Source: Kaistella sp.
GTDB taxonomy: Bacteria; Bacteroidota; Bacteroidia; Flavobacteriales; Weeksellaceae
Length of the DNA stretch: 64,000 bases
Assembly (NCBI GenBank): GCA_019459085.1
Contig: JAIBEW010000004.1
Location: 1 to 64,000 of the forward strand
Direction: 5' to 3'
Below, in pieces: positions 53,569 through 54,271 of this stretch. How positions within the stretch are numbered: position 1 is the first letter of the stretch; every line of letters starts with the position of its first letter. Under the pieces are notes generated by a model. It ran no database searches. It was not told where the DNA came from and saw only the letters and a program-made list of their open reading frames with translations. A program made the translations under genes and the position numbers.

Positions 53569-53847
53569 ATGTCAGTAAATTTCAAACCATTAGCAGACCG
53601 CGTTCTTATTGAACCCAACGCTGCCGAAACTACAACTGCCTCAGGAATCATTATTCCGGATACCGCAAAAGAAAAACCACAAGAAGGAACCGTAATCGCT
53701 GTCGGAAACGGCAAAATCGATGAACCAATGACGGTTAAAGCCGGAGACAAAGTTTTGTACGGAAAATATTCAGGTTCTGAATTGAAACTGGATGGTAAAG
53801 ATTACCTCATCGTAAGAGAATCTGATTTATTGGGAATTTTGGGCTAA
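53569..53847 (+). CDS. groES: Co-chaperone GroES
   Basis: [41 protein letters not shown]. Confidence 0.98.
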
Positions 53848-53879
53848 AAGCCTTAAGCGATAAGCAGTAGGCTATGAGA
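53845..53879 (+). repeat. Period-7 array TAAAAGC CTTAAGC GATAAGC AGTAGGC TATGAGA
   Basis: Exact 7-nt phase from the groES stop codon to the start codon of the next gene. Confidence 0.85.
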
Positions 53880-54227
53880 GACTACAAAAAATATGATGTT
53901 TGGAATTTAGCACATGCTATTACAAAAGATATCTATTTGGTTTCTCAGAATTTTCCGAGAGAGGAACTTTTCGGTCTTACTTCACAGATCCGCCGTGCAG
54001 CAATCTCTATTCCGTCCAATATTGCGGAAGGTTGCGGCAGGGGTTCAGATAAGGAATTTGCCCGGTTCGTTGAAATCAGTATCGGATCAACCAATGAAAC
54101 AGAATATCAGTTATTTCTGGCTTTTGATCTTAATTTTATCGACTTGGAAAATTACGAACTACTTGCTGAACGCTTAAATATTTTACGACAGAAATTAATA
54201 CAACTCAGAAAAAAATTATTAGAATAA
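53874..54227 (+). CDS. Four helix bundle protein (23S-IVP/TIGR02436-like) between groES and groEL
   Basis: [62 protein letters not shown]. Confidence 0.92.
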
Positions 54228-54228
54228 A

Positions 54229-54263
54229 CAACGGCTTATAGCATAAAGCTTCAAGCATAAAGC
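54229..54263 (+). repeat. Period-7 array CAACGGC TTATAGC ATAAAGC TTCAAGC ATAAAGC
   Basis: Exact 7-nt phase over 5 units, all ending in GC. Confidence 0.85.
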
Positions 54264-54271
54264 TCACAATT

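Follow-up and report, generated by a model that had tools for sequence, protein, structure and literature searches.

The S23/IVP proteins are common and a structure has been available since 2006, but they have no function that we know of. In the rRNA intervening sequences (IVSs) of Coxiella and Leptospira, an S23 open reading frame (ORF) lies between complementary ends; in Coxiella, tandem heptamers are found directly 5' of the S23p ORF and the terminal stem is cut by RNase III in vitro (PMC4990558). RAYT/REPIN systems likewise consist of a protein gene and a flanking repeat, the latter also dispersed as inverted doublets (PMC3116915). Heptameric simple repeats have been described as well, among them GGGGA(C/T)T in Nostoc and GGGAATC in Xanthomonas, the latter present genome-wide with convergent pairing (Rehm et al., PMC4692102), TAACTGA (PMC4679880) and the SPADE heptamers (PMC6344855); tandem heptamers are reported to be the most abundant intergenic repeats in many prokaryotes, and there is said to be "no clear clue" as to what they do (PMC6344855). 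The S23 fold is also that of Avd, which belongs to an RNA–protein complex of diversity-generating retroelements (DGRs). In the full-text literature searched, with most subscription papers outside it, we found no paper linking S23 proteins generally to heptamer repeats.

In the window (the whole 64-kb stretch of DNA analysed here), an S23 gene separates groES from groEL and is flanked on both sides by arrays of 7-nt units (Table 1). The 5' arm, which starts with the groES stop codon, consists in order of TAAAAGC, CTTAAGC, GATAAGC, AGTAGGC and TATGAGA, the last of which contains the S23 start codon; after the S23 stop codon (54225-54227), the 3' arm reads CAACGGC, TTATAGC, ATAAAGC, TTCAAGC and ATAAAGC. 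A sequence-only reading of this DNA had reported both arrays with exact letters and coordinates, and the RGC/GC ending that it ascribed to the units is present in nine of them and absent from the final 5' unit. A pattern of four consecutive, phased RGC heptamers (RGCNNNNRGCNNNNRGCNNNNRGC) was matched six times in the window, compared with none expected from 100 dinucleotide shuffles, which rules out a chance origin of the phased heptamers at this locus. All six matches fall into three clusters: the two S23 flanks and a gene-less (solo) array after groEL.

Table 1 Features of the two S23 loci in the 64-kb window
Feature	Position	Strand	Remarks
5' arm of second S23 element	4428..4469	+	period 8, GTTGTGGAGGTGTTAAGG
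Second S23 gene of the window	4502..4873	+	PF05635 E=2.5e-34
3' arm of second S23 element	4888..4956	+	period 8, ACAACTCC; inverted to 5' arm
groES, upstream neighbour	53569..53847	+	stop codon 53845-53847
5' arm, five 7-nt units (four with RGC end)	53845..53879	+	from groES stop to S23 start
S23 (23S rRNA-intervening-sequence-protein) gene, 117 aa	53874..54227	+	PF05635, TIGR02436; four-helix bundle
3' arm, five 7-nt RGC-ending units	54229..54263	+	ends 8 nt before groEL start codon
groEL, downstream neighbour	54272..55897	+	context
Solo (gene-less) RGC-unit array 3' of groEL	55905..55971	+	phased RGC pattern at 55914-55944

The ORF between the chaperone genes matched PF05635 (23S_rRNA_IVP) with E=8e-38 (129.4 bits; cut-off 33.8) and TIGR02436 with E=1e-35 (123 bits; cut-off 24). 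Its AlphaFold monomer is a predicted four-helix bundle (pLDDT 97.7) whose top structural match is Xanthomonas Xcc0516 (2gsc, TM 0.95), followed by Bacteroides BT_0352 (2rld), and the protein resembles no transposase. Both PDB relatives comprise five chains, by analogy with which the groES–groEL S23 protein may assemble into a pentameric ring. The model also resembles Avd (4dwl and 8ub7, TM about 0.8), but the two share only about 6-9% identity and, unlike a DGR, the groES–groEL locus has no reverse transcriptase (RT). We rejected the idea that the gene is a DGR Avd: its neighbours are groES and groEL and not an RT gene with template and variable repeats, and most true bAvd loci are free of heptamer arrays. 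Two bAvd loci (L368 and L369) differ from the majority in having array-like stretches upstream.

The locus resembles the rRNA IVSs, with which it shares the protein family and the placement of the S23 ORF between complementary ends. At groES–groEL this complementarity is partial: the same-locus inverted score of the arms is 18, compared with a mean of 10.1 for arms taken from mismatched loci, and the centroid structure of the spacer pairs the arms in part, whereas the minimum-energy fold does not pair them. A search of Rfam returned no known RNA family with a significant match. The element differs from an rRNA IVS in its position, outside the 23S rRNA gene and between two protein genes (groES and groEL), and in its arms, which are degenerate 7/8-nt arrays with a unit particular to each locus and with matching solo arrays dispersed elsewhere.

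The same genome provides further examples. TIGR02436 yielded eleven matches, corresponding to ten genes, four of them apparently decayed, whether by an in-frame stop codon (TAA, L001), truncation (L006 and L010) or a frameshift (L007/L011). Nearly all of these S23 genes lie, by eye, between period-7 or period-8 arrays, the units of which vary from gene to gene (TAAGC, CAGATGT, GTAAAAA, AAAGAAT and ACAACTCC, among others, also read by eye). In this genome, 6 of the 8 S23 genes that could be scored have two-sided arrays, compared with 24 among 660 other genes (Fisher p=1.3e-7). At the second S23 gene of the window the arms have an inverted score of 18 and a direct score of 10. This element (4428-4956), with arms of GTTGTGGAGGTGTTAAGG and CCACAACTCC, lies 5' of a putative tRNA-dihydrouridine synthase gene. 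For the background, 695 kb of the genome were scanned in stretches, and contained 47 period-7 arrays (2 after local shuffling) and 10 period-8 arrays (2 after local shuffling), with most other periods near background.

PF05635 scored above its cut-off in every one of the 36 congeners and in 221 of the 297 Bacteroidota genomes; 14 named control genomes gave no match to the S23 family. In 68 oriented Bacteroidota loci, self-identity of the upstream flanks peaked at lags 7, 14 and 21 (z of 16, 18 and 9) and that of the downstream flanks at the same lags (z of 17, 13 and 8), with smaller peaks at lag 8 and at 15 or 24; the distal control regions of these loci showed no lag-7 peak. A search with a single protein, the Xanthomonas S23, gave a further 80 loci from Proteobacteria, Nitrospirota, Planctomycetota, Chloroflexi, Firmicutes, candidate phyla, Acidobacteria and archaea, in which the two flanks gave z of 28, 20 and 13 and of 23, 15 and 7 for lags 7, 14 and 21 (14, 16 and 11 and 18, 11 and 5.5 after removal of Bacteroidota). 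The S23 element family occurs across bacteria and in some archaea, and the predicted excess of period-7/8 arrays next to its genes is very strong at every level, from the genome itself to the genus, the phylum and across phyla. Such arrays also accompany S23 genes on plasmids of cyanobacteria and Azospirillum; S23 relatives were found in 28 plasmid records, mostly cyanobacterial, and in none of 50,697 phage records. By the score used, arrays were two-sided in 77, one-sided in 54 and absent in 17 of 148 loci, fractions that are not population frequencies because the loci are mainly best-scoring hits; among shuffled flanks, the same score found an array in 3 of 292. The period alone is common to these loci. 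The RGC ending noted in the sequence-only reading is the groES–groEL locus's own, and we discarded it as a general mark of S23 since the units differ from locus to locus. The median arm is 35 nt, or five units, a figure that ranges from 4.9 to 8.7 units with the threshold; because of this shift, and because solo arrays are of similar length, a five-unit arm is not evidence for a pentamer reading seven nucleotides per subunit.

The arms are also mostly inverted with respect to each other, an orientation that had escaped the sequence-only reading, whose arrays beside the S23 gene are otherwise real. When the upstream flank was compared with the reverse-complemented downstream flank of the same locus in Bacteroidota, the mean score was 17.0, as opposed to 10.1 with the flanks of other loci. 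Inverted matches exceeded the 95th percentile of mismatched pairs in 41 of 68 Bacteroidota loci and 42 of 78 loci across phyla, direct matches being far weaker (12 of 68 and 13 of 78, respectively), and in about 40% of loci the inversion did not reach significance. The predicted arm duplexes have a mean energy of -31.8 kcal/mol, compared with -20.5 for mismatched arms. A few loci (L001, L009 and L132) have direct or duplicated arms or hairpins; in L009 and L132 an entire hairpin array stands on each side, an arrangement resembling the duplication of a solo hairpin about the S23 gene.

S23 genes are placed in the spacers of co-directional genes in 65 of 69 Bacteroidota loci and in 41 of 66 loci of the global set, whose ORF calls are noisier. 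The sites, named from flanking sequence or annotation, include groES/groEL, carA/carB, nuoC/nuoD, accB/accC and cas10/cmr3, and the arrays often abut start and stop codons. groES was found in all 36 congeners, and in nine of the 30 congeneric species whose groES–groEL spacer was read, this spacer holds an S23 gene with RGC/GCY arms, in some cases with an internal stop or frameshift. One spacer (L058) retains its arms around a decayed S23 gene, another (L071) has arms without a gene, its 3' arm still matching that of L069, and a third (L048) looks like arms alone; the others are short. The empty or decayed sites by which an insertion was to be recognized therefore exist among congeners, including a relative with an identical GroES protein (groES DNA 97.5% identical, start of groEL 96%), in which a gene-less spacer of 98 nt, scarcely alignable to ours, is compatible with either loss or gain.

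Comparisons between sites support the proposal, made from the single locus, that the gene and its arrays move together. L084 lies next to a gene read as ribulose-phosphate epimerase, and its alignment with the carAB locus L089 covers the gene plus arms only, whereas in a same-site pair the alignment spans the entire locus; gene and arms thus act as a single block, which is shared between non-homologous sites. Among 12 pairs of non-homologous sites whose S23 proteins have a relative score above 0.7, half have a unit in common, compared with about 0.7% of typical non-homologous-site pairs. We did not retain the notion that the protein clade dictates the unit: the relation between sites is weak (Spearman 0.08) and becomes strong only above about 0.7, in those 12 pairs. 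At carAB, our genome and three congeners have related S23 proteins with different units, so the array unit can turn over too. Gene-plus-arms blocks, inverted arms, placement in operons, gene decay, matched solo arrays and co-occurrence of gene and array (the last two detailed below) are all observed, and we consider it likely that the S23 gene, together with the array on either side, constitutes one small mobile element related to the rRNA IVSs. Because the unit sequence differs per locus, the ends of this element would be defined mainly by period and mutual complementarity.

The arrays are not confined to S23 genes. The sequence-only reading had tied them to the gene, beside which they are indeed enriched, but gene-less matching arrays are also dispersed genome-wide and the majority of arrays in our genome have no S23 gene adjoining them. 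The latter fits a scenario in which the arrays are independent simple repeats made by slippage, into which S23 inserts or with which it hitchhikes by recombination; the repeat number that differs among Coxiella strains (PMC4990558), and a hypothesis, cited in PMC4692102, attributing the heptamer excess to the polymerase footprint, point in the same direction. In our genome, 43 S23-less arrays matched the units of its own S23 flanks with a mean score of 15.5, compared with 13.3 (sd 1.0) for random sets from congeners, none of 60 as good, and 10.4 for the phylum. Across Bacteroidota, 19 S23-less genomes contained no period-7 or period-8 array in 748 kb, a result that speaks against slippage, whereas 20 carriers contained 26 in 749 kb (the genomes in these co-occurrence counts are related and hence not independent, and the two samples differ in GC content, 49.5 versus 40.6%); most other lags showed no such split. 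Nor does simple insertion into a tandem array yield arms that are mostly inverted and matched.

The Xanthomonadaceae offer a second view of the same question. The S23 gene found in their accB–accC spacer has GGGAATC arms; in Xanthomonas, the unit and the convergent pairing are identical to those of the known repeat. Like the described heptameric repeats, the arrays considered here are 7-nt tandem arrays; unlike them, they are linked to the S23 genes of their own genome, the earlier repeats having been described without a protein partner. In 150 (again related) genomes of the family, GGGAATC doublets were found in 37 of the 65 that carry S23 and 13 of the 85 that do not (p=1e-7), amounting to 2458 and 220 matches, respectively. 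One S23-less genome (G446) has 82 matches; here and in other such genomes, recent loss of S23 or a missed gene is possible. Close opposite GGGAATC pairs in Xanthomonas and Luteimonas are convergent in 22 of 22 cases and divergent in none, as in the S23 element, which also speaks against slippage, and on balance we regard the slippage scenario as unlikely. By eye, solo pairs are located at spacer margins with dissimilar loops, and most have, immediately internal to the 5' arm, an AAAGC-like stretch, a trait also present in the S23 element (L281: GGGAATCGGCAAAGCGGCC).

Units common to the S23 locus and the solo arrays of one genome would also suit a post-transcriptional regulator, with the arrays as its RNA binding sites in autoregulation and a wider regulon, and with no need for mobility. 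The co-direction of S23 with its neighbours, the frequent contact of arrays with start and stop codons and the translational role proposed for the TAACTGA heptamers of Beggiatoaceae (PMC4679880) agree with this, but patchy presence, decay of the gene with retention of the arms, the occurrence of gene plus arms at non-homologous sites and the several S23 genes with different units per genome argue against it; as a replacement for the mobile element we judge it improbable, and the two readings are compatible. It is very improbable that a Y1/RAYT-type transposase moves the arrays with S23 as a passenger: our genome does have two Y1_Tnp genes, neither of them at the groES–groEL locus but one at a distance of about 2.5 kb from another S23 gene, and REPINs are likewise inverted repeat doublets (PMC3116915), but one of the two (L392) has its own, different palindromes (ACGGGCTTTAGCCCGT), the other (L393) has no array, and heptamers are found at neither. 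L392 (contig C27, near 7860-8201), a RAYT-like Y1_Tnp gene, with its palindromes represents a separate REP-type system. The S23 element itself resembles RAYT/REPIN in that its flanking repeat recurs elsewhere in the genome as scattered inverted doublets. It differs in having a four-helix bundle as partner, and not a tyrosine (Y1) transposase, and a period-defined tandem heptamer array in place of a fixed palindrome; because the partner protein is no transposase, it is not a member of that family.

For the mobile element, a mechanism may be sketched from these analogies. As in the S23-coding rRNA IVSs, the arms would pair in the operon transcript to form a long hairpin with the S23 ORF in its loop, and RNase III may then cut or process the insert out of the transcript; insertion between chaperone genes would be tolerated because RNase III could remove the insert. 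To judge from the fold and the number of chains, an S23 ring might bind the single-stranded periodic array. This binding could drive the spread and upkeep of the arrays, as RAYTs serve REPINs, and solo arrays would accordingly correspond to derivatives of the S23 element, as REPINs do to those of RAYTs. Neither the RVT_1 gene nor the Y1 genes can be named as the motor, since the former is on another contig (C24, the window being on C33) and the latter have their own palindromes or no array. This reverse transcriptase gene (L391, C24 near 200293-200934; 492 aa) is the only RVT_1 gene found in the genome. A broader version, in which heptamer tandem repeats are largely products of S23 elements that form one pan-prokaryotic family and the ring reads one 7-nt step per subunit whatever the sequence, so that ends are recognized by period alone, is put forward tentatively, and we lean slightly against it.

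We know of no mobile element whose ends are specified by period alone. The rRNA-located form of S23 and the heptamer repeats were previously known separately, and period-defined ends would be new in principle. If S23 and the heptamers belong to a single family of elements, each provides the other with a testable function in binding, spread or the processing of operon RNA, and intervening sequences, hitherto a curiosity of rRNA, would become a widespread class of elements inserted in operons. S23/IVP protein has also been listed with CRISPR adaptation modules (PMC10910872), and insertion of S23 between cas genes of cyanobacterial plasmids may explain this association. On such plasmids (L174 and L177), S23 genes with heptamer arms lie in one case between cas6 and cas4 and in the other between cas10 and a cmr3-family gene.
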